NCBI GenBank assembly: GCA_023145515.1
Contig: JAGLDP010000038.1
Location: forward strand, 1 to 42,584
Direction of reading: 5' to 3'
Source of the DNA: Bacteroidales bacterium
Lineage (GTDB): Bacteria > Bacteroidota > Bacteroidia > Bacteroidales > UBA12481
DNA length: 42,584 bases
Shown: piece after piece, positions 2,051 through 40,616 of the stretch
How the letters are laid out: every line of letters begins with the position of its first letter
Numbering within the stretch: position 1 is the stretch's first letter
The notes under the pieces: generated by a model
Databases searched by the model: none
What the model was told of the DNA's origin: nothing
What the model saw: the letters and a program-made list of their open reading frames with translations, nothing else
Made by a program: the position numbers and the translations under genes

Positions 2051-3190
2051 ATGGGTTTATCTGTACGACAAATTGGGGAAGAATACAATAAAGAGATGCT
2101 TGCTATTTTGCTTGAGTCTCCTATGGAATCTGATGGTTTGAGTTTGTGTTTAGATCGTTCTCCAAATATATATGCTGTTCCACAACTCTTTTTTGATGGC
2201 TTTAAGGCTTATGGATTCTTCATGGATGAGGAGCTTGTTGGATATGGAATGATTTGTCATAAGGAGTTATATGTGAATGGCGAGAAAACCTTGGTTGGGT
2301 ATTTTGCCAATTTATATGTTAAAAAAGAGGCTCGAAAGTTAGGTTGGCTATATAAGGCCTCGAAGCCTCTTTTTGAAGAAATAAGCAAGATCGCAGAGAT
2401 TGGTTTTGCTAGCACTGTAAAAGGAAACAAAGCTACTGAAAGTATGATTGGGCGCAGAATTGCTAAGTTCCCCTTAATGCCTCACTCAGAGCTTGTTAGC
2501 ATGCAAGTAGTTCATAACTTACTCATTACTTTCAAGAAAAGGCTCAAGGCGAACACAAGGCTCAAGGCTCAGGGCTCAAGGCTCAAGTTGGTTATAAGGA
2601 GGGGAAAGGGTGAGGATATAAGTAAGATTGCTGCTTTGCTGGATGGGGAGTACCGTACTCGTTTGTTTGGGGCTGTTATGAATGAGAAGAATCTTCGTAA
2701 GCTTATTGATACGCGTCCTGGCTTCGGGATTGAGGATTATTGGCTTGCTGAGATGGATGGTCGCGTTGTTGGAGTTTGTTCGGCCTGGGATATCAGGGAA
2801 ATCAGACAAGTGCGAGTTATGTCTTATCGAAAAAAATTCAAATGGGTTTATCGGATATATTCCTTACTTGCACCCTTTCTTAGCTTCCCAAAATTACCAC
2901 AATCCGGCGAATCATTCAGAGAAATTATTGTTAATGATTTTGCTACGGAAAACAGTGATCCGGTCATTTTTGAAGCATTGTTAAGAAATGTGTATAATGA
3001 TGCCCGTAATCGTGGGTATAATATGATTGAGGTAGGCAGTTATGTTGGTGATCCTATGCTTGCTGCCGTAAAACCATTTTTCACACAAGAAGTATATTCC
3101 CACACCATTGTCGGAACCATTTCTGCTGATTATATTGACAAAGGCCAAATCGATGTAAGTCGACCATTTGTAGATATTGCTTTGACTTAG
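2051..3190 (+). CDS. Protein with two GNAT-like acyltransferase domains joined by a repeat-encoded linker
   Basis: GNAT-like segments GYFANLYVKKEARKLGW and IEDYWLAEMDGRVVGVCSAWDIR; linker KRLKANTRLKAQGSRLK encoded by heptamer repeats. Confidence 0.65.
   Translation: MGLSVRQIGEEYNKEMLAILLESPMESDGLSLCLDRSPNIYAVPQLFFDGFKAYGFFMDEELVGYGMICHKELYVNGEKTLVGYFANLYVKKEARKLGWLYKASKPLFEEISKIAEIGFASTVKGNKATESMIGRRIAKFPLMPHSELVSMQVVHNLLITFKKRLKANTRLKAQGSRLKLVIRRGKGEDISKIAALLDGEYRTRLFGAVMNEKNLRKLIDTRPGFGIEDYWLAEMDGRVVGVCSAWDIREIRQVRVMSYRKKFKWVYRIYSLLAPFLSFPKLPQSGESFREIIVNDFATENSDPVIFEALLRNVYNDARNRGYNMIEVGSYVGDPMLAAVKPFFTQEVYSHTIVGTISADYIDKGQIDVSRPFVDIALT
2541..2587 (+). repeat. GGCTCAA heptamer array
   Basis: ggctcaa at 2541-2547, then four contiguous units at 2559-2586 (one is ggctcag). 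Confidence 0.9.
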
Positions 3191-3257
3191 CAGATTCCTT
3201 TTGGGGTTATCATGAATTTTCGTTTGCTTTATAGCCCCAGGAAATTAGCGGGAAATA

Positions 3258-3845
3258 ATGGAGGCTAAAAACAGAAGTAAGCAGGAAAAACAATTCGAAA
3301 AGATTTTTAAAAATCTGTTTGAAATATACTTTCTGCCCTTAAAGTTTCATGCCAAACACTTCGTCGGTTCTGATGAAGTTTCAGAAGACATTGTTCAGGA
3401 TACTTTTGCTCATCTATGGGAGATTAGGTTTTCATTTGATTTTAGCGGCTCTGTTAAATCCTACTTGTTTCAAGCCATTCAAAACAAGTGCATCAATTAC
3501 CTAAAACACAATCAAGTTAAAGAAAAATATAAGAGTTTTGCCAGCATTAAAATCCGTGAAGCAGAACTTTTTACAAGTGATTTTATCTCGCAACAAGTAG
3601 CTATTCTAATCGAGAAAGAGCTAAGTGCAAGCATTAATAAAGCCATTGCAAAACTGCCTGATCGCTGCAAAGCAACCTTCCTTCTTAGTCGCGAAGAAGG
3701 TTTATCAAATAAAGAAATCTCAAAGGAATTGGGAATATCCGTAAAAGCGGTTGAAAGGAATATGACAAGGGCTTTATCAAGTCTTCGCCAAGCTCTTCAA
3801 GACTACACATCGATTGTCTTGATTATCTTCACTTTAATGAAATAG
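3258..3845 (+). CDS. ECF-type RNA polymerase sigma factor
   Basis: Region 2 (DEVSEDIVQDTFAHLWE) and region 4 (LPDRCKATFLLSREEGLSNKEISKELGISVKAVERNMTRALSSLR). Confidence 0.93.
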   Translation: MEAKNRSKQEKQFEKIFKNLFEIYFLPLKFHAKHFVGSDEVSEDIVQDTFAHLWEIRFSFDFSGSVKSYLFQAIQNKCINYLKHNQVKEKYKSFASIKIREAELFTSDFISQQVAILIEKELSASINKAIAKLPDRCKATFLLSREEGLSNKEISKELGISVKAVERNMTRALSSLRQALQDYTSIVLIIFTLMK

Positions 3846-3925
3846 TTGTGCTAAATAATCAATCATGGAGTTAATCCTATGTGGGGTTATGCCATGGTAT
3901 CTTGTTTATGTTAAGTAAGGAAGTT

Positions 3926-5092
3926 ATGAAAAAACAAAAAATCAATAAGGAGTATTTGCTTAAATGCCTAAGCAGAAAGGCATCAGATCTTGAATTGGAG
4001 GCACTTCTTGTGTGGCTGGAAAGTGACCGGGCAAATCTGATTGAATACAATAAGTTAAAGGAGGAATTGGAGGCTCATGAAATCAGGAGTCAAAGTGCGC
4101 AGAACAGTCTCAATACATCATGGAGCATATTTAAAAACCAGATCATTAACAAGAGCTTTTCAGGAAATATACGACGCCTGAGAAATCTACGAGTAGCCGC
4201 TTCTGTAGTGATACTTTTAGGACTAGGAGCTTCTCTGCTTTTACTTACACCAAGCATAAGACCAACTAAGAAACCAGATATTACGGCAGAGCTCGAAAAG
4301 CCATATATCATTTCTTCTTTTGGCCATAAACACTTTCTCAACCCTGAGAAACAATCAATCCGTTATGATGAGATTCTTCATGATTCTGCTTCTGCACAGC
4401 AGGAAAATAAGAAACCCAGAAAGAAGCAGGAAATACATGAACTCGTTGTACCAAGAGGCTACAGAATAAATTTGGAATTAGAAGATGGCACGATTGTTTG
4501 GCTAAATTCAGAGTCACGGCTCAAGTATCCAGTACATTTCACCGAAGAAACCAGACACATAAGTCTGAGTGGTGAAGGCTATTTTCAAGTTAAACATTCT
4601 GATTCACATCCTTTTATTGTTGAAACAACAAATGTTACTGTAGAGGTTATGGGAACGTCTTTCAACATATCTGCATTCGAAAACGAAGATCATATCACAA
4701 CTACTCTGGTTGAAGGCTCTGTAAAACTTCATACAACTGGCAATCAAGAAGATATCATATTACTACCAAATCAATGTGGGGTTTACTTATTGTCTTGTCA
4801 TAAAATTCACGTTCAAAACATTGACCCTGAGATATACACCTCCTGGATTAATGGGTATTATGCATTTCACAGTGAACCACTTGAGGTTGTGATCCAAAAG
4901 CTTATACGAAGTTATGGCATCCCAATTAGTATTAATAATCAAGCACTTAAGAAGTATAAGTTCTCCGGCAAATTAGAGCTGAAAAAAACCTTAACGGAAG
5001 TACTCGATATAATAAAATTAGTAGCTCCGTTAGAATATTGTGCCATAGATGGCAAAATAATAATTCAAAACCTTAACGATGAATCTTTGTAA
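3926..5092 (+). CDS. FecR-family anti-sigma factor
   Basis: Single TM helix, FecR core (VPRGYRINLELEDGTIVWLNSESRLKYPVHF...GEGYFQVKH...PFIVETTNVTVEVMGTSFNISAF); follows the ECF gene. ATG at 3926 preferred over the listed 3881. Confidence 0.92.
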   Translation: MKKQKINKEYLLKCLSRKASDLELEALLVWLESDRANLIEYNKLKEELEAHEIRSQSAQNSLNTSWSIFKNQIINKSFSGNIRRLRNLRVAASVVILLGLGASLLLLTPSIRPTKKPDITAELEKPYIISSFGHKHFLNPEKQSIRYDEILHDSASAQQENKKPRKKQEIHELVVPRGYRINLELEDGTIVWLNSESRLKYPVHFTEETRHISLSGEGYFQVKHSDSHPFIVETTNVTVEVMGTSFNISAFENEDHITTTLVEGSVKLHTTGNQEDIILLPNQCGVYLLSCHKIHVQNIDPEIYTSWINGYYAFHSEPLEVVIQKLIRSYGIPISINNQALKKYKFSGKLELKKTLTEVLDIIKLVAPLEYCAIDGKIIIQNLNDESL

Positions 5093-8000
5093 AACCCTCA
5101 CTGTCATGAAATTTACTGCCATATTATTTTTTGTTGGTGCATTTCAGGTGATAGCAGGAATAAGTACTTACTCACAAGAGACAAAGCTGAACCTGGATCT
5201 CCAAAAAGTAGCTATAAAACAAGTGTTTGAGGCTATTGAAGAACAAAGTGAATTCATTATTTTTTATAATGATAAAGACATTGACAAAAAGCACAGGGTC
5301 AATATCAATTTGACAGATGTTACAGTTGGAACTATTCTTGACAGTTTGTTCTATCAAACTTCTCTTTCATACAACATTATAGAAAGGCAAATTGTCATTA
5401 TTCCAAAAAAAGAAGCTGACAATAAAGAGCCTATTAGACAAGCTAACAAGCATATTGTCATGGGCTTGGTAAGCGATGCAAGAGACCAGAATCCATTACC
5501 AGGAGTAAATATCTCAATTCAAGGTACTACATCAGGAACCTCTACAGGAGGAGATGGGAAATATGCTCTTGAAGTTGAGAATCCAAATGCTATCCTGATT
5601 TTTTCTTTTCTTGGGTACCATAGCCAGGAAATTGCACTCAATGGTAAAGTCATACTCAATGTTGCTCTTCAAGAAGACACAAGACAGCTGAATGAAGTTG
5701 TGGTTATGGGTTATTCAGAAAAAACCCTAAATGAAATCTCAAGCTCAGTGCAGGTCCTTGACAGTGACGAACTATTGGACGTCACATCCTCAAATATCGG
5801 CACAATGCTCCAAGGGAAAATCAGTGGGGTTCAGGTAGTAAACAATGGAGGAAACCCGGGAGCAGCTGCAGAAATCAGAATTCGGGGTACAGGCTCTATC
5901 TCAGCTTCCGCAGCCCCATTGTACGTAGTGGATGGAATTATCGGAGGAGATTTTAGTCCTAATGATGTAGCAACAATTACAGTTTTGAAGGATGCCGGAG
6001 CAACTGGCCTATATGGATCAAGAGCAGCTGGAGGAGTAATTATTGTTACTACTAAAAAAGGATCTGCAGATAAAATGCATGTAAATCTGAAAACGTCAAC
6101 CGGACTCAGGCAAATCTCAAATGGAAACTTTCAACTCATGAACGGTCCTGAGTTGTACGATATGCAAAGAAATTTATTTTCTCCTTCCACTCTGCCACTA
6201 ATACGACCATTGAAATTAAAAGAAATGGATTTTGACTGGATTGATGAATCTTTTCACAGTGGACTCATTCAGGACTACTATCTCTCAATTTCGGGAAAAA
6301 ACAACAAGGTTTCGTATTATTTTGGAGCAGATGTATATGATGAAGAAGGTACTTTACTCAATACAGATTTCAGACGGTTCAGTTTCCGTAGCAACTTGAA
6401 ATATGAAATCTCAAAACGCATCAATTTGTCCACAAACCTGAATATCAGCAAGTCTACGAACACTACATATCAATACAATTCTCTGTACGATGCATATTTA
6501 TACCTCCCTTGGGATAATCCATATGATGCAGAAGGAAACCCAAGGTTCATTGATGCCACCTCATCAGATTGGTATAGTAGAGATAAAAGGAATTACATTC
6601 ATTCTAACACTTATAATTCCGATTCTGGAAAAGGCTTGGCCATTAATGGGGATGTTGTTCTAAATATCCGCATGACAGATTGGATATCTTTTTCATCTTC
6701 CAATAGGCTTGCCATAGGTACGGGTTGGTTTCAGTCATTAGTTGATCCGAGGGTAAAAGAGGGAATAGCCATAGGTGGAAGCTTATATAACAGTAATGAT
6801 TATTCCTCATATGCAATTTCCTCTAACATGTTTAAGTTGAAAAAGAACTTTGGCGAACACAGTGTTAACGGCATAATTGGATTTGAAGCAGAAAAGAATT
6901 ACTACGAATTTATGGGAGCAACTGGTCAGGGAATCCCAGTAGGCTTAACCATCCTAAATGCGGCATCAGTACCATTTACGGTTACTGGAACACGCACCGA
7001 AAGTGCTTTTACTTCGGGTTTCTCACAGCTCAATTATAAATTCCGATCTCGCTATTTTCTTACGCTATCCTATCGAATGGACGGATCTTCAAAATTTGGC
7101 GAAAACAATCGCTGGGGAAGTTTCCCTTCCGCCGCAGCTTCATGGCTAATCAGCGAGGAAGACTTCATGTCCAATTTTGCCAATCTTGATCAGTTGAAAG
7201 TAAGAGCCAGCTACGGAATAACCGGGAATGCCAACATTGGCGACTTTCAACATTTGGCAAAATATGCTTTCACTACGCAGTATGCTGCCATGCCCGCTGG
7301 GTTTCCGCAGAATCTCCCAAACCCTTCCCTGGGCTGGGAAAAAGCTCATACAATGAATATGGGTTTGGATATAAGTCTTTATAAAAGACTTGGCATTTCA
7401 CTTGATATTTATGATATTCAAAATAAGAACCTGCTGCTAAATGTACCTTTATCTCCATCTTCAGGATTTGAATATCAGACCCGAAATTCCGGGACTGTTC
7501 AAAACCGTGGAATTGAGCTACAAGTAAACTCCACAAATATCCAACGGGGTGATTTCACCTGGGAAAGTTCAGTCAACTTCTCTCATAATCGGAATAAAGT
7601 CATTTCACTTTCAGATGGAATTGATAACATTATCACTGGTGTTGAAGCCAAACAAATAATTCAGGAAGGGAAAGACATCTATACCTGGTATATGCCCAAA
7701 TGGTTGGGAGTTGATCCACTAAATGGAGATCCCCTTTGGGAAAGAATTATTTACGATGAAAACGGTGTCGAAACCTCAAGAGAAGCAACCAACAATTATA
7801 ATGAAGCTCAGTTTCAGGAAGTAGGTTCAGCAACCCCTAAATTCCTTGGTGGATTCATGAGTAACATGAAATATAAAAGTTTTAGTCTCAATATGGCCTT
7901 TAATTATGTCGTTGGTAATCAGATCTATCATCGATCAAGACAGTTCTTCGATAATGACGGAGCCTATATTTCCTACAACATTATGAAGTTACAGGATGGT

Positions 8001-8348
8001 TGGTCGCGATGGGAAAAAGAAGGCGACATTGCCACACACCCTAAGGCCATTGCCAATGGTAACAAACTATCAAATAATGTTTCGTCGCGATACATAGAAG
8101 ATGGAAGCTATTTGAAGTTACGTAATATCACTTTTTCTTATGCACTACCTCAAAGAATCGTTAGGAAACTTAATCTCGGATCAGCAAGGATATTTATCTC
8201 AGGAGATAACCTTTGGACATGGACAAAATTCTCAGGGATGGATCCTGAGGTTTCTATTGTAGGAGATACCTGGACCCGACCTGGCACCGGTGATTTCAAA
8301 TATCCCATTAGTAAACAGATCCTATTTGGAGTAGACGTTACCTTTTAA
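5079..8348 (+). CDS. SusC/RagA-type TonB-dependent transporter with N-terminal STN domain
   Basis: STN domain, CarboxypepD_reg-like segment (GLVSDARDQNPLPGVNISIQGTTSGTSTGGDGKYAL), plug (MLQGKISGVQVVNNGGNPGAAAEIRIRGTGSIS), barrel. Start could be 5079 or 5106. Confidence 0.96.
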   Translation: MNLCKTLTVMKFTAILFFVGAFQVIAGISTYSQETKLNLDLQKVAIKQVFEAIEEQSEFIIFYNDKDIDKKHRVNINLTDVTVGTILDSLFYQTSLSYNIIERQIVIIPKKEADNKEPIRQANKHIVMGLVSDARDQNPLPGVNISIQGTTSGTSTGGDGKYALEVENPNAILIFSFLGYHSQEIALNGKVILNVALQEDTRQLNEVVVMGYSEKTLNEISSSVQVLDSDELLDVTSSNIGTMLQGKISGVQVVNNGGNPGAAAEIRIRGTGSISASAAPLYVVDGIIGGDFSPNDVATITVLKDAGATGLYGSRAAGGVIIVTTKKGSADKMHVNLKTSTGLRQISNGNFQLMNGPELYDMQRNLFSPSTLPLIRPLKLKEMDFDWIDESFHSGLIQDYYLSISGKNNKVSYYFGADVYDEEGTLLNTDFRRFSFRSNLKYEISKRINLSTNLNISKSTNTTYQYNSLYDAYLYLPWDNPYDAEGNPRFIDATSSDWYSRDKRNYIHSNTYNSDSGKGLAINGDVVLNIRMTDWISFSSSNRLAIGTGWFQSLVDPRVKEGIAIGGSLYNSNDYSSYAISSNMFKLKKNFGEHSVNGIIGFEAEKNYYEFMGATGQGIPVGLTILNAASVPFTVTGTRTESAFTSGFSQLNYKFRSRYFLTLSYRMDGSSKFGENNRWGSFPSAAASWLISEEDFMSNFANLDQLKVRASYGITGNANIGDFQHLAKYAFTTQYAAMPAGFPQNLPNPSLGWEKAHTMNMGLDISLYKRLGISLDIYDIQNKNLLLNVPLSPSSGFEYQTRNSGTVQNRGIELQVNSTNIQRGDFTWESSVNFSHNRNKVISLSDGIDNIITGVEAKQIIQEGKDIYTWYMPKWLGVDPLNGDPLWERIIYDENGVETSREATNNYNEAQFQEVGSATPKFLGGFMSNMKYKSFSLNMAFNYVVGNQIYHRSRQFFDNDGAYISYNIMKLQDGWSRWEKEGDIATHPKAIANGNKLSNNVSSRYIEDGSYLKLRNITFSYALPQRIVRKLNLGSARIFISGDNLWTWTKFSGMDPEVSIVGDTWTRPGTGDFKYPISKQILFGVDVTF

Positions 8349-8359
8349 TTCCTTATCCA

Positions 8360-9865
8360 ATGAAAAAACTATCTATATACATAATTCTTACATTATCTCT
8401 GCTTGTCTCTGCATGTGAACTGTCTCTTACACCTCATGACGGAATGACCAAGGAACAACTTTCAGAATATCCAGAAGGAGCGGGTTATGCCACAAATGGC
8501 AACTATGCAATGATTAAGGATATCCTTGAATACAAGGGAGTTGAAGACCTGAGGAACACTTATGTTCGTCATTACTTTCAGCTGGCAGAGTTCCCAGGTG
8601 ATAATATTAGTCTAAGCGGATCTACTACTGATCACTTGTTTTATGCATGCACATACCGGCATTTTGCCACCATGATGAATACAACATATTTCTGGTTCAG
8701 TGGATACAAAATTATTAATGGTGCATGCCAGATTATTGAATCCGTTGAAGAAGGTACATCAGCAGATTTAGATCAACTAATTGGAGAAAACTACTTTTTA
8801 CGTGCTATGGCCCACTTTGATCTGGTCAGAATATTTGCCACACCATTTACTCAGGGATCAGATAATCCGGGAATCATTGTACGCACTTCATCTGAAGGTC
8901 AGGGCGGACCTCGCAACACGGTGGGTGAAGTATATCATCAGATTATTGAAGATTTACTCAAGGGAAGTGAGTTAATGAATACACCAAGAGGAAACAGTTT
9001 CGCATCTAAAGAAGCTGCCTGGGCTTTATTATCCCGGGTCTATTTATACATGGAGGAAAACCAATTAGCAGTCGATTATGCCAGTATGGTTATTGAATCA
9101 GGCCGTTTCCAATTGGAAAGCTCAGGAGCGTATCCAGATTATTTTAAAAATGCTTTGATTTCTTCTGAAACCATTTTGTGTGTTGAACACACTCTCCAAG
9201 ACGATAAGGTCTCTGGTGCCATTGGGTCAATGTATTTATCAGACCAAGGACTGGGATGGGGTGAGATTTATGCTTCTCTGCCTTTGCGTAATCTTCTCAA
9301 TAAAAATCCTGAGGATAAGCGCCTTACCTTTATCAAACCTGAGTATAAAGCTGATCCGGATGGAAATATCCTGACTGATGCACAAGATAAACCCATTGTT
9401 GCTGAAAGAAATGGTTATCCAAAATATTATATGACCAAATTTTCTTATCAGGATGGTATGGTCACCCTCAGTTCTCCGGTTCTTCTTCGCCTGGCCGAGG
9501 TTTACCTCAACCGTGCCGAGGCTTATGCAAAATTAGGAGATGATGCACAGGCTATTGATGATGTAAATACCATTAGGAGCAGAGCTGACATTCCGGATGA
9601 AGCCTTATTTTCGACATCAAATCTCCTTGGTTATACTTCAGTTCTGGATATCGTTTTAGATGAACGCCGCCTGGAATTATTTACTGAAGGACACCGGACT
9701 TTTGATATTTTCAGGAATAACATGATAATGAATCGAAGCTATCCGGGTGTTCATCTGCCAGAAGGAGAAACCTCACAATTCATTGATCCTTCTGACCCTC
9801 GCATCATCTACTTTATCCCGCAGGATGAAATATTAGCAAACCCAGAAATGATTCAAAATAAATAA
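8360..9865 (+). CDS. SusD/RagB-type nutrient-binding lipoprotein
   Basis: Lipobox (LLVSACELS), SusD-like RAMAHFDLVRIFATP and LNRAEAYAKLGD...DERRLELFTEGHRTFDIFR; directly follows SusC. Confidence 0.95.
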   Translation: MKKLSIYIILTLSLLVSACELSLTPHDGMTKEQLSEYPEGAGYATNGNYAMIKDILEYKGVEDLRNTYVRHYFQLAEFPGDNISLSGSTTDHLFYACTYRHFATMMNTTYFWFSGYKIINGACQIIESVEEGTSADLDQLIGENYFLRAMAHFDLVRIFATPFTQGSDNPGIIVRTSSEGQGGPRNTVGEVYHQIIEDLLKGSELMNTPRGNSFASKEAAWALLSRVYLYMEENQLAVDYASMVIESGRFQLESSGAYPDYFKNALISSETILCVEHTLQDDKVSGAIGSMYLSDQGLGWGEIYASLPLRNLLNKNPEDKRLTFIKPEYKADPDGNILTDAQDKPIVAERNGYPKYYMTKFSYQDGMVTLSSPVLLRLAEVYLNRAEAYAKLGDDAQAIDDVNTIRSRADIPDEALFSTSNLLGYTSVLDIVLDERRLELFTEGHRTFDIFRNNMIMNRSYPGVHLPEGETSQFIDPSDPRIIYFIPQDEILANPEMIQNK

Positions 9866-9895
9866 TCTAAATCGTAACATTTAAAAAAAAGAAGT

Positions 9896-10741
9896 ATGAA
9901 AAAAACAAATTATTTTTCGAGTCTGGCAATGGTCATCATTATAGCTTTGACCTTTAGCTCATGTAAAAAAACACCTGAACCAGTAGCTTTATTTAGCTCT
10001 GCTGTGGATGGCTTGGTTGTAACCTTCACAAACTCATCAACAGATGCTGACACCTACGCATGGAATTTTGGTGATGGTAATACATCTACTGAAATGTCTC
10101 CGGTTCACACTTATGTAGATTTTGGTTTGTATAGCGTTACTTTAACTGTTACTGGTGAAGGTGGCGAAGCAATTGAAACTAAGGATATTGAATTAGTTTT
10201 CGCCCCTTTAATGACCATTGACGGTGATTTCTCAAAATGGGATAACATTGATGATTTTGTTGCCGGAGATGGTGGTAGCATTACAAAGGTGAAAATGGCA
10301 AATGATTCTAAGTACTGGTACATTTATATTGAAGGTACTGATGCATTAAGAGGATTCTTTGACATCTATATTAATACAGATGATGACGCCTTGACAGGTG
10401 CAAGTACATGGGTATACCCTGCCGGAGCTGGTGCAGAATATTTATTAGAGGGATTCATTGCTGATACTGGTGATGCAGATCTTTTCCTTGACAATCCTGA
10501 AACTGAAGACTGGGCATGGGATGTAGCTCTTCCAGTGGGCTCAGGTCTGATAACAGCTTCTTCTCTTAAGGCAGTTACTGGTGGTAAGGCTATTGAAATC
10601 TCTATCCTACGAGAGCTTGCAACTGAACTTGGTGATGTTATCTCCGTTGGTTTTGTTGATGTTGCTGAAGATTGGAGCATGCAAGGCGGATTACCAATTA
10701 TTGGTGATGAAAACTCAGCTTTGCTTAAATATACATTTTAG
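9896..10741 (+). CDS. PKD-domain lipoprotein, probable surface glycan-binding protein
   Basis: Lipobox (LTFSSCKK), PKD motif (TYAWNFGDGNTSTEMSPVHTY), C-terminal domain with DGDFSKWD / DIYINTDDDALTG; downstream of SusD. Confidence 0.8.
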   Translation: MKKTNYFSSLAMVIIIALTFSSCKKTPEPVALFSSAVDGLVVTFTNSSTDADTYAWNFGDGNTSTEMSPVHTYVDFGLYSVTLTVTGEGGEAIETKDIELVFAPLMTIDGDFSKWDNIDDFVAGDGGSITKVKMANDSKYWYIYIEGTDALRGFFDIYINTDDDALTGASTWVYPAGAGAEYLLEGFIADTGDADLFLDNPETEDWAWDVALPVGSGLITASSLKAVTGGKAIEISILRELATELGDVISVGFVDVAEDWSMQGGLPIIGDENSALLKYTF

Positions 10742-10766
10742 GAGTAGTTTTTTAGGTTGATTATTT

Positions 10767-10804
10767 GCAAGTCCAGTGGTTATAGTATAATCACATGGAC
10801 TTGC
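10767..10804 (+). terminator. Intergenic hairpin, possible terminator
   Basis: gcaagtcca-gtggttat-agt-ataatcac-a-tggacttgc; two stacked stems of about 9 and 8 bp, followed by attttaaaa. Confidence 0.65.
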
Positions 10805-10822
10805 ATTTTAAAACACAATAGC

Positions 10823-12532: not shown

Positions 12533-12544
12533 TAATTTCATAGC

Positions 12545-23854: not shown

Positions 23855-23897
23855 GGCCCACCAGGGCTTGAACCAGCGATCACCTGATTATGAGTCA
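23855..23897 (-). pseudogene. Second tRNA-Met(CAT)-like 3'-half remnant
   Basis: Reverse complement tgactcataatcaggtgatcgctggttcaagccctggtgggccca: anticodon loop, T arm (with mismatches) and 3' acceptor-like end. Shares 30/31 bp with the 20672-20702 copy. Confidence 0.82.
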
Positions 23898-23915
23898 CGG
23901 AGTCACCGAATCACT
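23892..23915 (+). repeat. Octamer array of 3 units
   Basis: gagtcacg gagtcacc gaatcact; joins the tRNA remnant to the sulfatase stop codon. Confidence 0.85.
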
Positions 23916-25329: not shown

Positions 25330-25382
25330 GGGATTCGGTTAATTCGGGTTAATTCAGGTAATTCTCGCTCACTTTGTTCCTG

Positions 25383-25438
25383 GGGATTCGGGGACTCGGG
25401 GATTCGGGGACTCGGGGATTCGGTTATTCAGTTATTCG
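25383..25438 (+). repeat. Octamer array of 7 contiguous units
   Basis: gggattcg gggactcg gggattcg gggactcg gggattcg gttattca gttattcg. Confidence 0.95.
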
Positions 25439-25444
25439 GGGACC

Positions 25445-25467
25445 GGTGGCTGAGCGGAGTCGAAGCC
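25445..25467 (+). repeat. GGTGGCTGAGCGGAGTCGAAGCC element
   Basis: Resembles a short dispersed intergenic repeat I recall from Bacteroidota genomes; only one copy here. Confidence 0.35.
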
Positions 25468-25502
25468 CTGAAAACTGAGCTCTTCCGAATGACGAATGAC
25501 GT

Positions 25503-25640: not shown

Positions 25641-25667
25641 GTCGAAGATTGAAGGCCCCTGCATCCC

Positions 25668-25715
25668 GAGTCACGGAGTCACTGAATAACGGAATAACGG
25701 AATAACCGAATAACC
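25668..25715 (+). repeat. Octamer array of 6 contiguous units
   Basis: gagtcacg gagtcact gaataacg gaataacg gaataacc gaataacc; inverted relative to 25383-25438 (GTTATTCG versus CGAATAAC). Confidence 0.95.
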
Positions 25716-25729
25716 GCATTTACCTTTCC

Positions 25730-25786
25730 GCTGATTTTTGCCTTGTATTTTATTCATTCTTTGCTGATTTTAGCCTTGTATTTTAT
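25730..25786 (+). repeat. 24-bp direct repeat, 33-bp period, just upstream of ATPase copy 2
   Basis: gctgatttttgccttgtattttat (25730-25753) and gctgattttagccttgtattttat (25763-25786), one mismatch. Confidence 0.9.
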
Positions 25787-27173: not shown

Positions 27174-27310
27174 GCATAATACTTCTCGTGGAATGGCCAG
27201 GTCTTACTCATAGATGCTCCTTCGTTGACCATTAGCGGACGGGCATAGAAAGGATTCCCTTTCTCTCCGTTTATCCAGAGAAATTTCAAGGCCTCATTGA
27301 AAAAAGGAGA
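27134..27310 (-). pseudogene. Internally deleted sulfatase remnant
   Basis: FFNEALKFLWINGEKGNPFYAR / PLMVNEGASMSKTWPFHEKYYAQEKNGGIPDWVK matches two separated segments of the 23911-25329 sulfatase (FFNEALKFIRLNGERGKPFYAR and ARPLMVNEGAIMSKTWPFHEKYYSQEKNGGIPDWVK). Confidence 0.93.
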
Positions 27311-27375
27311 GTTCTCACAAATCATCAGGAGACCAGGAGGGATTATAACAAGCCTGGTAATACGAAACTGAATGT

Positions 27376-28497: not shown

Positions 28498-28500
28498 GCA

Positions 28501-28508
28501 CAAATATA
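28501..28508 (-). promoter_or_regulatory. TATATTTG -7-like box next to the ATPase copy 3 start
   Basis: Minus strand reads tatatttgtgcATG, fitting TAnnTTTG. Confidence 0.45.
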
Positions 28509-28621
28509 ATGATTTTATATCGTAACCGAATAATATTATGTTATTTTTCGTATCTCTTCGAGAATCATGTATTCATCAGCAATAAATATCTTCTTATAAG
28601 CATCCCGGTTTTTGACTACTT

Positions 28622-32561: not shown

Positions 32562-32572
32562 TGATCTGAGTT

Positions 32573-33880
32573 TTAGTTAATCAGTTTTTTATAGATATCT
32601 ATCAATTGCTTACCCTGGTCATAAATATTGAAGTGTTTTGCCACTCCTGATCTGCCGGCTTCTCCCATTTTTTTTATTTCCTCGGGATGATTAAGCAGAT
32701 CTGCCCAGGTATCAGCAATTTTTTCTGGCGTGTTTGGCTCATAAGTCATCCCTCCTTTTGACAGTTCAATGATCTCAGGAAATGCACCCAGAGCCGGCTG
32801 GACAACAGGCACACCCGATGCCATTGACTCTAGTAAATACAATCCGAATGCCTCGCCGTTGCGAACAGGCACTGAAATAAATGAAACCGAATCGAAAAAC
32901 CGGGTACGACCTTCCTTCTCAAAGTCCTCTTCAAAAATCACCTGATCCTGTAAACCGGCCGCTTTTATGGTTTTCCTTATTGTTTTTAATATCTCCTTGT
33001 CATCTCCGGTAGATCCACCTGTCATGATCAGTTTCACATCATCGAAACCATCCATTTTTTTCAGCTTAACAAAAGCATCAATCATGATATCTACTCCGTT
33101 TCCGTGGCACATTCTGGAGATGAAGCCGATATTTCGGGACTCGGGGACTCGGGACTCGGGACTCGGGGATTCATTGGTGCTATATTCTTCGGGGTCTACT
33201 CCTAGGTGTAGAGTGTGGAGTTTTTCTTTTGGGATGTTCATCTTCTCCTGAACCAGTTTTGAATAATACTCGCTTACACTGATATAGGCATCGATAAATT
33301 CTGAATTCTCCTCCATTAGTCCCCAGCTCCGCTTTTGAAATTTCTCCTCCATAGGATCAATCCAAACATCTTCATCCTGCAGGGAGCATATTATTGGCAC
33401 ATTCAACACCTGTTTCAGCTTAGGAGCAATTCCATTCAGGAGGGCATTAGACATATGGATAACATCCGGATTACAATTATCACCAATCCAGTTGACCATC
33501 CTGTCAAGTTCTTCATTTTGCTTTCCCTCTTCTCCCAGCAACATAGAAATGGTCATATCTTCCAGTCCGGTTGCACGGGTTGAACCGGCCATTTTTGCCG
33601 CAAACTTCAGCATAGGTCCTGAATTCAAAAATCTGTCGAACCATTTCGGTGCCTTTCTAAAAAACGGCGACATCTGCTTCAGGTAAATACTGATGGCACC
33701 GTAAAAAACCGGCACCTCTTTGACCTGGTCATCAACATCATCAAAAAGCGGTAAATACATTGGTATTTTCACTACCTCATGGTTAAGCTTTTTCAAAGCC
33801 TCAACATATTTACTATCGCGCAGACAGTTTCCGCAATAAAAACTCCCTCCGGAGCCGGGTATTATTTGTAGTATCTTCAT
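32573..33880 (-). CDS. GT4-like glycosyltransferase with repeat-encoded insert
   Basis: MKILQIIPGSGGSFYCGNCLRDSKYVEAL; RNGEAFGLYLLESMASGVPVVQPALGAFPEII; insert ESPSPESRVPESR. ATG at 33880 overlaps the upstream stop. Confidence 0.9.
   Translation of the reverse strand: MKILQIIPGSGGSFYCGNCLRDSKYVEALKKLNHEVVKIPMYLPLFDDVDDQVKEVPVFYGAISIYLKQMSPFFRKAPKWFDRFLNSGPMLKFAAKMAGSTRATGLEDMTISMLLGEEGKQNEELDRMVNWIGDNCNPDVIHMSNALLNGIAPKLKQVLNVPIICSLQDEDVWIDPMEEKFQKRSWGLMEENSEFIDAYISVSEYYSKLVQEKMNIPKEKLHTLHLGVDPEEYSTNESPSPESRVPESRNIGFISRMCHGNGVDIMIDAFVKLKKMDGFDDVKLIMTGGSTGDDKEILKTIRKTIKAAGLQDQVIFEEDFEKEGRTRFFDSVSFISVPVRNGEAFGLYLLESMASGVPVVQPALGAFPEIIELSKGGMTYEPNTPEKIADTWADLLNHPEEIKKMGEAGRSGVAKHFNIYDQGKQLIDIYKKLIN
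33136..33172 (+). repeat. 7/8-bp array of 5 units inside the glycosyltransferase gene
   Basis: gggactc ggggactc gggactc gggactc ggggattc. Confidence 0.95.
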
Positions 33881-34980
33881 TTTCCAAAACAGTATATAAA
33901 TCCATCGCTTGCTGCCACCCATATTTTTCCGTTGCTAACAGCAGGATTACTAATTATTCCACTCCCAATTTCGTAATTCCATTCTATTTTTCCAGTTTCC
34001 AGGTCAAGAATCTGAAGGTCGCCCCTCATATTTGCTATAAGCACCTTATTTCCAATAATAACCGGTGATGCATCAACCCTGCTCCCTGAATTGGTTTTCC
34101 ACAACAGTCTGCCATCTATTCGGCTTAAGCAATATACATTCTTATCTCGATTACCGATGATCACCAAATCCTTACTCACAGATGGAGAACCTATGAACGG
34201 AAGATTCATGTCCTCCTCCTCAAACTTCCATTGTATTTTACCATTGATAAGGTCAACACAGGTAAAGCTTCCATCGTAATCGCCCAAATATGCCTCCCGT
34301 TCTGAAACAGCTACCGAGCTGGCAACGTAGGAAGCTACTTCAACCTTATTGTCTGGTTTTCCTGTAGCAATATCGATTACATGAAGGAAACCATCGCAAC
34401 CTCCGAAAACAGCCTTCCCATCAGAGCATCCGGCTGCTCCATTGATAAAATTATCTGATTCATATCTCCATAAACTATCCCCTGTTTCAGCATCTACACA
34501 ATGAAGATAATAATCATAGCTACCCACAACCAAGCTGGTCTTTCCATTCACAACCCAATAATTAGGAGAACCCATGATCTGATTTTCAGTAAGATATACC
34601 CATTTTTTTTGTCCGGTTTTCAAATCCAGAGCATATAAGGCTCCGTCGAGATTTCCAATAAAAACTACTCCGTCAAGAATCAAGGCCGATGCTTCGATGG
34701 CATTTTCTGTATCAAATTCCCATATCTTCTTTCCAGTCTCATCTATAGCATAAACCAATCCATCTTCAGAGCCTACCACCATAATGCCATTGCTCACCAC
34801 CGGTGAAGCCAGTATTCCTCCTCCGGGCTTCATGCTCCATAGTAGTTTCGGATTAGACGAGAATGTTTCGGTGCTAACACCCAGAAGCTGTTGATCTCCA
34901 CGGAATATTGGCCATGAGGATTGAGCCATCAGGGAGATGGTTAGGGTTAGGATGATTGCTGTTATTGTTATCTTTTTCAT
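33877..34980 (-). CDS. Secreted PQQ-like beta-propeller protein
   Basis: Signal peptide; repeated blades such as GKKIWEFDTENAIEASALILDGVVFIGNLDGALYALDLKTGQKKWVY. Confidence 0.9.
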   Translation of the reverse strand: MKKITITAIILTLTISLMAQSSWPIFRGDQQLLGVSTETFSSNPKLLWSMKPGGGILASPVVSNGIMVVGSEDGLVYAIDETGKKIWEFDTENAIEASALILDGVVFIGNLDGALYALDLKTGQKKWVYLTENQIMGSPNYWVVNGKTSLVVGSYDYYLHCVDAETGDSLWRYESDNFINGAAGCSDGKAVFGGCDGFLHVIDIATGKPDNKVEVASYVASSVAVSEREAYLGDYDGSFTCVDLINGKIQWKFEEEDMNLPFIGSPSVSKDLVIIGNRDKNVYCLSRIDGRLLWKTNSGSRVDASPVIIGNKVLIANMRGDLQILDLETGKIEWNYEIGSGIISNPAVSNGKIWVAASDGFIYCFGK

Positions 34981-36497
34981 TTTATTCTCGTTGGGTCCGA
35001 TATTGCACCTGTTGGGCAGGCTTTTGCTACCTCTTTGGCGGTTTTTTGCAGGCCCTTGGCGATTGATTCTCCGAACGGAATCTGTATTTGCACGTCGAAG
35101 CCTCTTCCTATGAAGGTAAATCCATATTTTTCTTTGTATTTACTTGTTATTCTCACGCATATCCCGCATTTAATACATTTGGCGGGTTCATAAATTACTA
35201 CATCCTGCTGGATATTTTTAGTCACTAATTGCCTGTCATGTATGGAGAAATATCTCCTTTGACTAGCGGCATATTCATCTGAATAATCTCTTAACTTACA
35301 ATTGTCGAGTTTGCGACAGTCGCAGTGCAGACATCGTGCTGCTTCGGCTTTTACCTGATCAGAAGAAAAACCATTGGCTAAAACTTCAGGCTCCAGTCTG
35401 TCTAAATCATTTGACTCTTTGAGATATTCGGCAAATTCAGGCTCAAGAAGTTTCCCAAATCGTGAGTTGAAGCGTTTGGGTTCACCAGTGACATTCTCCC
35501 CTTTCAAAAATTGGTCAACTTCAAATGCTGCATTTTTACCTCTTGCTACTGCCTGAATAGCGAGTTTTGCACTTTGAATTGGAAAAACTCTTATGTCTTG
35601 ATTCTTGAACTTCGAGCTTCGAACTTCGAATTTAGGCACTGAAGTAGCTACTACGACTGCTGCAAATTCGTCTTGGAGGCCTTCAATAAAAGCAAGGTCA
35701 GCATCGACCCCAAATTGAACCTGAATTCCCGTATTCAAAATAACATCAATCTCTCTATCAAGCACTTCTGCTGGTAACTTTTCATGCAAATCAGGGTGCC
35801 TTAGTTCTCCGCCAAGCCGGACTTCCTTCTCAAAGATTTTTACTTGATATCCTCTCTTTCGCAAGTAATAAGCAGCTGTCAGGCCTGCTGGACCTGAGCC
35901 GATGATGGCGATTTGGGGGATCGGTGATTCGGCGACTCGGTGATTCTGTGACTCGATTTTTCCAAAATCACCAGCATAACGCTTTAACAAACAAATCGAT
36001 ACTGCCGTATCAATTTCCTTTCTTTTGCAGGCTTTTTCGCAGGGGGCCGGGCAAATCCTGCCTAATACTGATGGCAATGGGATGTCTTGCATGACCACTT
36101 CATAGGCCTCCTGAGTTTTGCCTTCTGCCAGCAAACGGTTCATTCTTGGAATATTCATGTGGGCCGGGCAACTTAGCTGACAAGGTGCCTCGCAGTCTCC
36201 TACATGATCGCTGAGGAGTAATTCGAGAGCAGTTTTGCGGGCCTCTATGATCTCTTCATCCTTTGTAATAATATCCATCCCTTCTTCCGCAGGTTTACTA
36301 CATGAGGCAAATAGTGTTCCGGTTTTAGCATCCTTCACCATGCACATCATACAACTGGTGTGAGTTTCCAATCCTTCATAATAGCACATCGTAGGAATTT
36401 CTTTTCCCATTCTCAGGGCAGCCTGAAGAACTGTTTCTCCGGCTTCAAGCTGAATTTCCTTATGATCAATTATTATAGAAATCACTTTCTTCATCAT
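34977..36497 (-). CDS. Fe-S flavoprotein: NuoG-like 2Fe-2S N-terminus, GltD-like FAD domain, C-terminal 4Fe-4S
   Basis: N-terminal CYYEGLETHTSCMMCMV; CEAPCQLSCPAHMNIPRMNRLLAEG; AIIGSGPAGLTAAYYLRKRG; CIKCGICVR...CPTGAI. ATG at 36497 preferred. Confidence 0.85.
   Translation of the reverse strand: MMKKVISIIIDHKEIQLEAGETVLQAALRMGKEIPTMCYYEGLETHTSCMMCMVKDAKTGTLFASCSKPAEEGMDIITKDEEIIEARKTALELLLSDHVGDCEAPCQLSCPAHMNIPRMNRLLAEGKTQEAYEVVMQDIPLPSVLGRICPAPCEKACKRKEIDTAVSICLLKRYAGDFGKIESQNHRVAESPIPQIAIIGSGPAGLTAAYYLRKRGYQVKIFEKEVRLGGELRHPDLHEKLPAEVLDREIDVILNTGIQVQFGVDADLAFIEGLQDEFAAVVVATSVPKFEVRSSKFKNQDIRVFPIQSAKLAIQAVARGKNAAFEVDQFLKGENVTGEPKRFNSRFGKLLEPEFAEYLKESNDLDRLEPEVLANGFSSDQVKAEAARCLHCDCRKLDNCKLRDYSDEYAASQRRYFSIHDRQLVTKNIQQDVVIYEPAKCIKCGICVRITSKYKEKYGFTFIGRGFDVQIQIPFGESIAKGLQKTAKEVAKACPTGAISDPTRIK
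35607..35627 (+). repeat. Heptamer array of 3 units
   Basis: gaacttc gagcttc gaacttc; encodes KFEVRSSKF on the coding strand. Confidence 0.85.
35915..35954 (+). repeat. Octamer array of 5 units
   Basis: gggggatc ggtgattc ggcgactc ggtgattc tgtgactc; encodes ESQNHRVAESPIP on the coding strand. Confidence 0.93.
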
Positions 36498-38842
36498 CTT
36501 TTTATTATCGCCTCCTCCGGACAAACTATACGACAAGTATCACATTTGATACAGAGATCGGTATTAATAATATGCTTGTTATGGGGATCAAATGGGATGG
36601 CATTCACCGGACATTTCTGAGCGCACAAGGTACATCCGATACAATCGTCTGTAATGTGATACTCTATAAGTTCTGCACATTTACCGGTTGGACAATTTCC
36701 ATTTAGGTGGGCCTCATATTCTTCCCTGAAATAACGCAAGGTTGACAGGATTGGATTCGGAGCTGATTTTCCTAATCCACATAAACTGCCTTTCTTAGTC
36801 CAGTCAGCCAAATTCTCCAGTTCCTCAAGATCTCCTTTTTTTGCTTTGCCGCTTGTCAGTCTATCCAGAATATCCAGCATTCGTTTAGTTCCAACTCTAC
36901 AAAACGTACATTTCCCACAAGATTCGTTTTGAGTGAATGACAGAAAATAGTGGGCAATATCCACCATACAATCATCTTCATCCAGAACAACCATGCCACC
37001 TGATCCCATCATGGCGCCCAATTCCTTTAACGATTCAAAATCGATAGGAGCATCTGCCAATTCTGCGGGGATACACCCTCCTGATGGTCCGCCAATCTGA
37101 ACAGCCTTAAACTTTTTACCACCAGGAACACCTCCTCCAATCTCTTCTACAATTTCACGTATACTAATTCCCATCGGCACTTCAATCAATCCACCACGTG
37201 CCACTTTACCGGCCAGTGCGAACACCTTAGTTCCTTTACTGGTTTCTGTGCCTATAGAGTTAAATCTATCAGCACCACTACGGATAATGAAAGGTATTAC
37301 AGAGAAAGTTTCGACATTATTCACCAGGGTAGGATTTCCAAATAATCCTTTTTCAACAGGATAAGGGGGACGAGCCTTTGGGAACCCTCTTTTGCCTTCG
37401 ATCGAGGCCATCAGGGCAGTTTCTTCTCCACAAACAAAAGCACCGGCACCTTCATAAATACGAAGATCAAAACTAAACCCAGAGTCCAGAATATTATCAC
37501 CAATCAGTCCTTCCTCCTTCAGTATTTCAACTGCTTTTTTAATTCTTGTAACGGCCAGTGGGTATTCTGCTCTCAGATAGACATATCCCTGGTGAATCCC
37601 GGTTGCATAGGCAGCAATCAGAATCCCTTCCAGCATTCTGTATGGATAAGACTCCATCAGCATCCGATCCATAAAAGCTCCCGGATCTCCTTCGTCTCCG
37701 TTACAAATCAAATATTTTATTTCTCCCTCTGCCCGGGCAGCAAGCTCCCATTTTGTTCCTGTACTAAACCCAGCACCTCCTCGTCCACGTGTTCCGGAAT
37801 TCCTAACTTCATTAATCACTTCTTCCGGGGTCATTTCTTTCAATGCTTTCTTCAATGCCAGAAATCCACTTTTGCTTTTATATTCGGCTAAATCCAATGG
37901 ATTAATAACCCCTCTGTGTTCAGTTGCAATCGGAACTTGTTTTCCGAGAAAGGCTGATACTGGTTTATCGCGGTAATCTATTGAATATCTGTCAATTCCA
38001 TCCCAATTACTATCATCCTGTATCCATCCGGCAAGATTCATCAGTTTATCTCCCCATCGGTTTAATAATCCGGGAGGTGCAAAATGACGATTAACGATTT
38101 TCGATACGTCTTCTGGTTTTACTTTGGCATATAGAGTCACATCACCATTAACAGGAATCACCTCAACCAGTGGAACCTGATGACACATACCTACGCAGCC
38201 AACATGTTTTAATTTGACAGGCAGATGTTTTGTATCCACAACATCCTGAACAGCATCTCTGATTTCATCACTCCCACTAGCCACACAGCATGAACCTAGT
38301 CCGATTCTGATTTCGCCAGCAATTTCACTTCCATCTGCTTTTCTGAATAAGCCCTTTTTGTCTGACTTTTTATTCTCCTCAAAATCCTTAATAACTTTGC
38401 CTACCTGGTCTGGTGCAACATGGCCGTACGTCACCTGATCAATTTGCACTACCGGGGCAATTGTGCAACATCCCAGGCAGCTGACTTTTTCAAGAGTATA
38501 CATTCCACGCTCGTCGGTTAGTCGGGCACCTTCAAGATTTAATTCTCTGATAATAGCATCATGAATTAAGCCGGCTCCTTTCACGTGACAGGCGGTGCCA
38601 ACACAAACTTTAATAATGTGCTCACCTGCCGGCTCCATCCTGAATTGAGAATAAAAACTACCCACACCGGTAATCTGCTCCGCGGTGATATTGGTATTAT
38701 CGCAGATATATCGCAAAGCCTCTTCTGGGAGAAAATTATACTTAAGCTGTATAGCCTGAAGAATAGGTATTACCTGTTCAGTTCCTTTACCAAGGTCTGC
38801 AATAATATGATCCAAATCTCTCAGGTTCAACTCCATTCTCAA
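36494..38842 (-). CDS. NuoE-NuoF fusion oxidoreductase with extra thioredoxin-like 2Fe-2S domain and C-terminal 2[4Fe-4S]
   Basis: NuoE-like CVGTACHVKGAG...CLGCC; second ferredoxin CCVASG...CVGMC; NuoF GRGGAGFSTGTKWELAA...CNGDEGDPGAFMDR; ESCGKCTFCRVG; CIGCTLCAQKCP...CIKCDTCRIVCP. Confidence 0.94.
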   Translation of the reverse strand: MRMELNLRDLDHIIADLGKGTEQVIPILQAIQLKYNFLPEEALRYICDNTNITAEQITGVGSFYSQFRMEPAGEHIIKVCVGTACHVKGAGLIHDAIIRELNLEGARLTDERGMYTLEKVSCLGCCTIAPVVQIDQVTYGHVAPDQVGKVIKDFEENKKSDKKGLFRKADGSEIAGEIRIGLGSCCVASGSDEIRDAVQDVVDTKHLPVKLKHVGCVGMCHQVPLVEVIPVNGDVTLYAKVKPEDVSKIVNRHFAPPGLLNRWGDKLMNLAGWIQDDSNWDGIDRYSIDYRDKPVSAFLGKQVPIATEHRGVINPLDLAEYKSKSGFLALKKALKEMTPEEVINEVRNSGTRGRGGAGFSTGTKWELAARAEGEIKYLICNGDEGDPGAFMDRMLMESYPYRMLEGILIAAYATGIHQGYVYLRAEYPLAVTRIKKAVEILKEEGLIGDNILDSGFSFDLRIYEGAGAFVCGEETALMASIEGKRGFPKARPPYPVEKGLFGNPTLVNNVETFSVIPFIIRSGADRFNSIGTETSKGTKVFALAGKVARGGLIEVPMGISIREIVEEIGGGVPGGKKFKAVQIGGPSGGCIPAELADAPIDFESLKELGAMMGSGGMVVLDEDDCMVDIAHYFLSFTQNESCGKCTFCRVGTKRMLDILDRLTSGKAKKGDLEELENLADWTKKGSLCGLGKSAPNPILSTLRYFREEYEAHLNGNCPTGKCAELIEYHITDDCIGCTLCAQKCPVNAIPFDPHNKHIINTDLCIKCDTCRIVCPEEAIIKR

Positions 38843-40616
38843 TTACTTATTTCCTATACAAAACAGGCTTTTATCTCCCTTCAGGTAAATCATTCCGTCG
38901 GCAAAAGCCGGACTCGCAACCACTTTTTCGCCTAATTTAGGTTCGCCTATAACTCTCAGTTCCTTATTAACCTCAAAAATGTGCATTATCCCCCCCATAT
39001 CAACCGCATAGACTTTTCCATCAGCCACAATGGGTGAAGCATAATATCCTTCATATCCTTCATGTTCCCAGTACTTCTCTCCTGTGAGAGCATCATAACA
39101 AACAAATACTCCGTAACTGGTTCCAATAAACAAAAGGCCCTCTGATTCTACCGGACTAGCAACTTCAGGCAGATATTCGTCATTTTCCCAAACAATTTCA
39201 GGATTCTCACCTGGTCTTATAGCCACCAATCGGGCATATTCATTAGATCCAAAAACCAATCCTTGTCCGTATGAAGCAGAAGCACCTACTTCACCCATAA
39301 GACATTCAACAGACCATAGTTGCTCTCCTGATTCCAGATCATGACCAGCAATAAAAGGGTCAGTGGTAGTTAGTATCTGCATTTTTCCATCTATTTCAGC
39401 CAGTATTGGTGAAGACCATGAAATCTTATTCTTTCTTATTACTTCCCAGATAGTTACTCCATCAGCAGTATTGAGTGCAGAAATCTTCCCACCTCGATTG
39501 GTGTCATATAAGATGATTAGTTTATTTTCATGATAGATCAGTGATGAGCTATGTCCGTAGTGATTATCAGGCACTCCCATATTTCTGGCCCATATTCTGT
39601 TTCCCGAAAAATCAAATGCAATCAGGTCACCCGTTCCAAAAATTGCATAAACTGCCTCACCATCTGTTGTCATAGTCGGTGCAGACAGTCCTGTATCAGA
39701 GGTTGTTTTGGGCGGAGCAGCAGGTGATCCTTCAATATTATTCACTTCTTTTTGCCATAGCATTTCACCAGTATTTCGGTTGTAGCAATAGACCTCACGG
39801 GCATCATTATCTCCACCGGCTAAAAAGATTTTATCTCCCCAGATAATTGGTGAATTGAAGCCCGATCGCGGAACAGCAGCTTTCCAGATAATATTTTTTC
39901 CCGTTGATACATCCCATTCCGTTGGGATGTTTTTTACGAAGGCTACTCCGTTTGAGAATGGGCCACGGAAGGCGTTGAAGGGGAGGGTCGGGGGATCGGG
40001 GATCGGTGATTCTGTGATTCGGTGATTCGGTTGAGATTGGTGGATTGGTTTTGCTTAGGTTTATTATTTCGATTTCTTCGGTGATTGTTTCTTTTGCCTT
40101 TTCTTCTGCTTTTCGTTGAGCTAATTTGAATTCATCGTAGTTTGCTAATTGGTTGTTTGTTGAAAACGCGGCTCCTAGTGCTGCAATAAACATGATAGCT
40201 CCTATGCTCCAAACCCAATAGATAGATTTTTTTCGAGAATTCTGATTGTCATAATCAGGATTCAGGGGTTCTTCAATTTTGCTTTTTAGATCATGTTGCA
40301 TCTTCAATAACAGACCTAGAAAAATTCCGGCAAAGAGAAGGATAAATCCGCCGGTTTTTACCTGCCATTCACTGGTGAAATATGCTTTTCGTGCCAACAG
40401 ATCCAGTTGTCGGATTTCCAATTTCAGGGCTTCATTATCAGGAGCCTGATCAAGACGTTCAACTAAGGCGGCTATCACTGATGACTCGATCGGATCCTGC
40501 TTTTGCATCTGCAGGAAGTTCAATAATAATATGATGGCTACCAGTCCGGCAAAAAGTCCTGTACCAGTGATTAACTTTGACAGTAATAGTATTTTTTCTT
40601 GCTTCTCCATATTCAT
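38843..40616 (-). CDS. Membrane-anchored PQQ-like beta-propeller gene split across two reading frames
   Basis: ORF 39831-40652 gives the TM N-terminus and linker. Another frame read from the micro-repeat array continues FNAFRGPFSNGVAFVKNIPTEWDVSTGKNIIWKAAVPRSGFNSPIIWGDKIFLAGGDNDAREVYCYNRNTGEMLWQKEV directly into ORF 38843-39763. Confidence 0.8.
39992..40029 (+). repeat. 7/8-bp array at the frame change
   Basis: gggatcg gggatcg gtgattct gtgattcg gtgattcg. Confidence 0.94.

Follow-up and report, generated by a model that had tools for sequence, protein, structure and literature searches.

Along one stretch of a Bacteroidales draft genome (42,584 nucleotides of assembly GCA_023145515.1, contig JAGLDP010000038.1, hereafter the window), short tandem arrays of 7- or 8-bp units lie at protein linkers and gene borders, raising the question of what these arrays are and how one short word came to occupy so many separate places. 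Arrays of heptamers and octamers are known from separate observations in Xanthomonas, Nostoc, Beggiatoaceae and Geobacter, and there is no agreement on their origin or function.

Micro-arrays of the window and their abundance in the host genome

Tandem Repeats Finder (TRF), combined with reading of the sequence, recovered within a few bases all eight arrays listed in the initial annotation and two further ones, at 25333-25364 and 25486-25501 (Table 1). On the + strand, the array at 25382..25442 has five GGGG tracts 4 nt apart, a potential G-quadruplex. The array at 25668..25716 lies 28 bp upstream of an AAA_14/DUF4143 ORF (25743-27173), and that at 35915..35955 lies within the GltD-like ORF, in the linker that joins its Fer4_20 and NAD(P)-binding domains. 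Three-frame translation placed the array at 39991..40031 at a frame change between an N-terminal membrane part (ORF 39831-40652) and a PQQ-like propeller, the latter consisting of ORF 38843-39763 and its upstream extension. Also seen in the window were an A+T-rich 23-bp repeat, TTTACTTTACATTATTTAAGCAC, repeated three times in tandem at 22204-22274, upstream of a propeller gene at 22377, and the sequence TGAGCGGAGTCGAAG at 25451-25465, which adjoins an octamer array; L104 has a similar CTGAGCCTGTCGAAG near an array, and in L132 an array has the first part of it nearby.

Table 1 Tandem micro-arrays of the window.
Unit	Coordinates	Strand	TRF	Location	Translation
GGCTCAA heptamers (CAAGGCT/CAGGGCT)	2541..2587	+	2556-2587	tandem GNAT protein ORF 2051-3190	NTRLKAQGSRLK
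Octamers GAGTCACG GAGTCACC GAATCAC	23892..23914	+	detected	3' end of sulfatase gene 23911-25329 (-)	
Imperfect period-9 array ATTCGGTTA	25333..25364	+	detected	upstream of sulfatase start	
Octamers GAATAACT GAATAACC GAATCCCC GAGTCCCC GAATCCCC GAGTCCCC GAATCCCC	25382..25442	-	detected		
Short heptamers CGAATGA	25486..25501	+	detected		
Octamers GAGTCACG GAGTCACT GAATAACG GAATAACG GAATAACC GAATAACC	25668..25716	+	25673-25714		
GAGTCCC(C) heptamer/octamer	33134..33167	-	detected	linker of GT4 glycosyltransferase ORF 32573-33922	ESPSPESRVPESR
GAACTTC heptamers	35607..35630	-	detected	GltD-like oxidoreductase ORF 34977-36536	SVPKFEVRSSKF
Octamers GGTGATTC/GGCGACTC/GTGACTCG	35915..35955	-	35921-35955	GltD-like ORF 34977-36536	ESQNHRVAESPIP
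Octamers GAATCACC GAATCACA GAATCACC then GATCCCCGATCCCCC	39991..40031	-	39988-40031	membrane-PQQ gene	

TRF, shuffles and a reversed-pattern control agreed that tandem micro-arrays of period 7 or 8 are real and far more numerous than chance predicts. At a score of at least 14, a lag-match detector found 2 period-7 and 3 period-8 segments in the window, where 20 second-order Markov shuffles gave 0.0 of either period, and 8 period-7 and 6 period-8 segments, against 0.0 expected, in a 277-kb sample composed of the window and of contig starts taken at regular contig numbers from the same assembly. The arrays of window and sample are head-to-tail repeats of units within the 5-11-nt range, longer and more frequent than expected by chance, as is the definition of long simple-sequence repeats (LSSRs). 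A total of 33 period-8 and 22 period-7 arrays was found in 484 kb of host sequence, the dominant unit being the octamer GAATCAC+N (reverse complement NGTGATTC) and the second the heptamer GGCTCAA; in general the host arrays are made up of a 7-letter word and one nearly free letter. In the whole assembly, a draft of 2.58 Mb in 213 contigs and 62.8% complete, the pattern (GGTGATTC)2 with at most one mismatch was matched 46 times, at about 27 separate loci by manual count of the list, against 0 times for the reversed control, which removes the possibility, raised in the initial annotation, that genome-wide counts are no higher than in randomized sequence. Contigs C42 (end) and C43 (start) break within octamer arrays, so the count of these arrays in the draft is probably too low.

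One free base in a mostly fixed unit

Thirty octamer arrays comprising 130 units, a set that is partly selected because part of the 484 kb was chosen for carrying the octamer, gave the consensus GAATCAC+N. Positions 2, 4 and 7 were almost invariant and positions 3, 5 and 6 set the sub-families GAGTCAC, GAATAAC, GAATCCC and GAGTCCC, bearing out the earlier impression that the units form related families. At position 8, by comparison, 48% of the 130 units differed from the commonest base, and this position was polymorphic in 26 of the 30 arrays, the remaining positions in 0 to 12. The unselected one-mismatch matches to (GGTGATTC)2 had 27 of their 31 mismatches at position 8 (manual count, P about 8e-21). 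Adjacent units shared the position-8 base in 42% of pairs, against 35% expected from composition. Other words also had a free position: five GGGANTC arrays (22 units) of the closest genome, G296, varied at N (position 5) alone, and position 1 was variable in five of six host TTGAGCC arrays; looser unit matching also takes in degenerate flanking units altered at other positions. Some genomes that carry this octamer, such as the Gammaproteobacterium MO_133.B26, had no variation whatever. Higher-order alternation of GAATCACC and GATCCCCC, with several repeats, was observed at L272:564-1132 and L041:1002-1078.

Single copies of GAATCAC outside arrays were not enriched (39 found, 40.8 expected), and the arrays, not scattered motifs, are thus what multiplies; a dispersed regulatory motif consisting of the single-copy core was rejected for the same lack of enrichment. 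The flanks of the arrays contained no borders or target duplications, the RNA folding z-scores of the arrays were near 0 (-0.48 to +0.75) with no fold better than shuffled sequence, and no Rfam match was found. RNA structure and membership of a known RNA family were rejected on these grounds, as was a small mobile palindromic element (REP/MITE-like, or of the type of the Rickettsia palindromic elements), the arrays having no inverted-repeat fold, and the small mobile repeat that the initial annotation had considered found no support as a distinct element with a mechanism of its own. A link to a dispersed TGAGC..GTCGAAG motif was also discarded, since only one copy of the latter occurs in the 484 kb.

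Placement relative to genes

ORFs take up about 95% of the DNA, yet 23 of the 30 octamer arrays were intergenic or overlapped a stop codon. Four were inside ORFs in sense, all with the stop-free GAATCAC orientation on the coding strand, as had been proposed from the window, and three antisense arrays overlapped gene edges. Arrays in general lay mostly at stop codons, in intergenic DNA and in protein linkers, in agreement with the initial annotation. The array at 35607 is inside the NAD(P)/FAD domain, not in a clean linker; here the protein of the window is shorter than several of its orthologues, which in the alignment carry additional protein sequence where the array at 35607..35630 sits. No rule related octamer orientation to the neighbouring genes (13, 12, 10 and 9 over four classes), and the array-bearing genes examined had no bias toward surface genes.

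The idea that arrays mark synteny breaks was prompted by L041:15213 and 17412, which flank an apparently moved gene, by L280:5715 and by 25.3-28.6 kb of the window. Breaks were found in 14 of 16 intergenic intervals with arrays and in 19 of 54 without (p=0.0004), but in intervals of at least 40 bp the figures were 12 of 14 and 12 of 18 (p=0.41), and we do not claim the link because it vanished once intergenic length was controlled. At L041:15213-17443 the gene of a Por-tail protein lies between two direct GAATCAC arrays, where G296 has a 17-bp gap; G296 has a copy of this gene at another place, 84% identical against a background of about 72%, and the gene looks moved.

Word replacement at orthologous sites

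G296 belongs to the same genus, and its orthologous stretches are mostly 65-77% identical to those of the host. An array of a different word was present at the orthologous G296 site of 6 of the 25 mapped arrays, and the same word was kept at none (0/25). Recurrence at 6 of 25 sites compares with 2.6% at random positions; it was not significantly above that in array-free intergenic intervals (2/18, p=0.43), on which basis a same-site hotspot was rejected. The dominant words of the two genomes differ, being GGGANTC, TGAARAC and GAGTAACC in G296 and GAATCAC+N and [T/C]TGAGCC in the host. At the 3' end of the sulfatase gene, the host GAGTCACC is matched in G296 by GGTTACTC octamers (=GAGTAACC; C58:54517-54542); the first linker of the GltD-like protein (35915..35955), with octamers in the host, has GGGAGTC/GGGAATC heptamers in G296 (L236:10135-10160) and TCACTCG heptamers in L246. 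Likewise, host octamers at L280:5715 face AAGACCA and AAGCCCT heptamers, and GAATCACA at L269:9292 faces GAGTAACC; at L266:15880, the looser one of the six, GATTAGTG faces T-rich and TGAAAAC-type heptamers. The membrane-PQQ fusion gene is a single intact ORF in 10 relatives, and in several the linker in question carries repeats of other kinds; in G296 it holds heptamers of the word GGGARTC (C58:41506-41538). In another genus (L241, L244, L247) this linker also contains other repeats, such as VVIPAEAGTPSLTTN and KTVDEKTVDEKTVDG.

Several arrays are insertions relative to orthologues, as the initial annotation had anticipated. The GNAT orthologue of G296 (L263) reads KRLRT------KGTGQNL, a clean in-frame difference of 18 nt, and the linker of the GT4 glycosyltransferase is 6 aa shorter and free of the array in 12 orthologues; conserved linkers with the same peptides, which would have counted against the initial annotation, were not found in the orthologues. 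Positions 25329-28625 of the window, with the arrays at 25382-25442 and 25668-25716, have no counterpart in G296, in which only 59 bp separate the flanks. The segment 25330-28620 holds two genes for AAA_14/DUF4143-type ATPases, with the arrays at its left border, and a further AAA_14/DUF4143 gene lies at 20924-22177. Also missing in G296 is a segment of about 10 kb (3190-13604) with genes for an ECF sigma factor, an anti-sigma-like protein, SusC/SusD-like and other proteins, the flanks of which are separated there by 843 bp. In two species of Paludibacteraceae with 79% identity (L065 and L075), the same array of three GGTGATTC and GGTGATTT is followed by four ATAACCGC octamers, from which it follows that arrays can be stable and that their turnover is not always fast.

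The congener pair thus indicates that array positions can persist while the word is replaced. This persistence and the single free base in a mostly fixed core are two regularities that any theory of origin must explain, and both can be tested from sequence data alone. To judge from the literature searched, two features appear to be new: the replacement of one word by another when congeners are compared at orthologous sites, and the one-free-base rule, which several different words follow.

Distribution in other genomes

None of 11 other genus or family genomes contained the exact pattern (GGTGATTC)2, nor did any of 48 genomes of the order; two genomes from a different class had it, with 26 matches in one of them. 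When 84,980 species genomes were scanned for (GGKGAYTC)3, carriers among the matches listed belonged to Paludibacteraceae, Lentimicrobiaceae, Sphingobacteriaceae, Saprospiraceae, Dolichospermum, Proteobacteria, Verrucomicrobia, Planctomycetes, Gemmatimonadetes and Streptomyces, and many loci were present in several of the genomes listed; four viral contigs also matched. A Dolichospermum strain carries a related word, GGTGACTC, L077 a homogeneous array of 17 identical units, and related octamers recur patchily across other phyla. Genomes of two other family genera (G297, G299) contain GGCTCAA heptamers in dozens of places, in agreement with the suggestion that the units are dispersed beyond this host.

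Origin of the arrays

We consider block copying, followed by slippage and by selection according to position, to be the best explanation of these lineage-specific arrays of the LSSR/STRR class, a judgment made with a little more confidence than doubt. An existing array would be the source of blocks of about 25-35 nt whose copies enter new sites, with microhomology-mediated template switching and illegitimate recombination as the most plausible routes. Strand slippage, classical for simple-sequence repeats, would then lengthen and shorten the arrays and make them mosaic, and purifying selection would clear them from protein cores; they are found at stop codons, in intergenic DNA, in linkers and in one broken gene. 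The dominant word would switch between lineages, and at six tolerant orthologous sites other words are indeed present. Because such arrays make linkers longer and are also found where a conserved gene is broken, they give rise to variation in proteins. The unlinked loci L041, L269 and L279 share the ordered block GAATCACA GAATCACA GAATCACC GATCC, identical over 29-34 nt, a composite block noticed post hoc. Two-unit blocks were shared 113 times, against a mean of 68.5 in pool shuffles, a value reached by 1 of 500; within-array permutation reached the observed two-unit sharing in 31 of 500 cases and the three-unit sharing in 37 of 500. The sharing of ordered 29-34-nt blocks suggests some copying between loci, and the evidence that it provides is modest. 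The array kept in Paludibacteraceae, the near independence of neighbouring position-8 bases and the non-significant recurrence at 6 of 25 sites weigh against the scheme. Block copying is favored because plain slippage leaves unexplained one word at dozens of loci, the unenriched single copies and the free eighth bases.

The main rival is that the arrays are binding sites, the 7-bp core being recognized in tandem by some abundant protein that binds DNA or RNA, such as a nucleoid, translational or termination factor, while the spacer base drifts; different species would use different factors and hence different words. Position-specific variability (position 8 in 26 of 30 arrays, position 5 alone in GGGANTC of G296) and placement at gene ends agree with this proposal, and the Geobacter GTTGCTYN octamers, which also end in N, are predicted sites of a global regulator (PMC2700814). 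We nevertheless regard it as unlikely, given the lack of consistent orientation to neighbouring genes, the unenriched single cores, the arrays within proteins and a broken gene, and the failure of any of the 25 sites to keep its word in the congener. A second rival, slippage alone during replication, starting from seeds that arise by chance, with no copying between loci and a polymerase footprint that favors period 7-8, would account for the preference for this period in many unrelated words and phyla and for the homogeneous arrays of several genomes, such as that of L077. In the form in which PMC4679880 and PMC4692102 cite it, the LSSR idea of Mrazek et al. is one of slippage with a period tied to the polymerase footprint. 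As the whole explanation it seems to us improbable: a sequence-independent process would give every locus its own word, whereas one word dominates per genome, and the octamer occupies about 27 loci of the host and none in 11 other members of its genus and family, with single copies unenriched. Ordered blocks common to unlinked loci also argue against it, as do the nearly independent position-8 bases of neighbouring units, which plain whole-unit slippage does not predict.

Phase variation, in which 8-bp changes in copy number switch reading frames on and off, was suggested by the PQQ fusion gene, which is in frame in 10 relatives and changes frame at the array of 39,991-40,031, a break that could be a local error of the draft assembly. 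The arrays are short, imperfect and mostly intergenic, those in the GNAT and GT4 genes are in frame, and the absence of surface-gene bias among the genes examined adds to making contingency loci very unlikely. Several coding arrays do lie in variable, low-complexity linkers, as they would if they were ordinary conserved linkers or chance; the shuffle and reversed-pattern controls refute this, orthologues lack the peptides or have other words, and most arrays are intergenic, leaving such an account hardly credible. A highly improbable alternative is that the arrays are patches made by a telomerase-like enzyme with a short internal template that adds 7-8-nt units, with one unfaithful position at the template boundary, and sealed into broken or tolerant sites. 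One DRT10 reverse transcriptase makes 9-nt repeats, and tandem-repeat synthesis of this type (PMC12632851) requires that a genome encode both this enzyme and a template RNA of the form A-B-A' whose sequence matches the unit. If true, templated synthesis would explain the per-genome words, word switching between congeners at the same sites, the one free base and the unenriched single copies.

Comparison with known repeat systems

Cyanobacterial STRRs are short tandemly repeated heptamers dispersed in one genome, and by analogy the host arrays resemble them in a different host phylum, making STRRs, already named in the initial annotation, a good analogue. The statement made there that no established mechanism is known was fair, but the class itself has been published (PMC4692102, PMC4679880, PMC2700814). 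Xanthomonas and Nostoc have GGGNATC / GGGGA(T/C)T heptamer repeats (Rehm et al. 2015, PMC4692102), likewise dispersed in tandem, mostly intergenic near gene ends and with one or two variable positions; the type is present in G296 as GGGANTC, and the array at 25382-25442 of the window is an octamer version, GGGGATTC/GGGGACTC. Unlike the G-quadruplex GGGNATC repeats, the main host word GGTGATTC has no GGG, hence not the four or more G3+ tracts of a quadruplex, which it cannot make; only 25382-25442 has such tracts. In Xanthomonas 83% of the repeats are at the same place in two species (PMC4692102), whereas none of the 25 host arrays keeps its word in G296.

The TAACTGA heptamer direct repeats of Beggiatoaceae, cyanobacteria and a few Bacteroidetes (MacGregor 2015, PMC4679880) are also dispersed tandem heptamers in which a single word dominates; they are distributed patchily among phyla, overlap stop codons and at times lie in ORFs in the stop-free orientation. 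Most of them lie within several nt upstream of start codons in forward orientation, whereas the host arrays follow no orientation rule, and single-base TAACTGA variants are rare as repeats in BOGUAY, whereas the host octamer has a free position. TRF and sequence reading found no TAACTGA unit in the window arrays; units of this type occur in a relative of the host (L240:9143-9176). Geobacter metallireducens has GGGACCG heptamers at 49 locations and GTTGCTYN octamers in 48 sequences (PMC2700814). The Geobacter octamers pair on opposite strands, a pairing rule not seen in the host, and the sequences are unrelated, but there too arrays of about four 7- or 8-mers are dispersed in and between genes, and the octamer ends in a free base. 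Because the GGGNATC, TAACTGA and Geobacter repeats are the same kind of thing, the host arrays are members of the known class of long simple-sequence or STRR-like repeats and no new kind.
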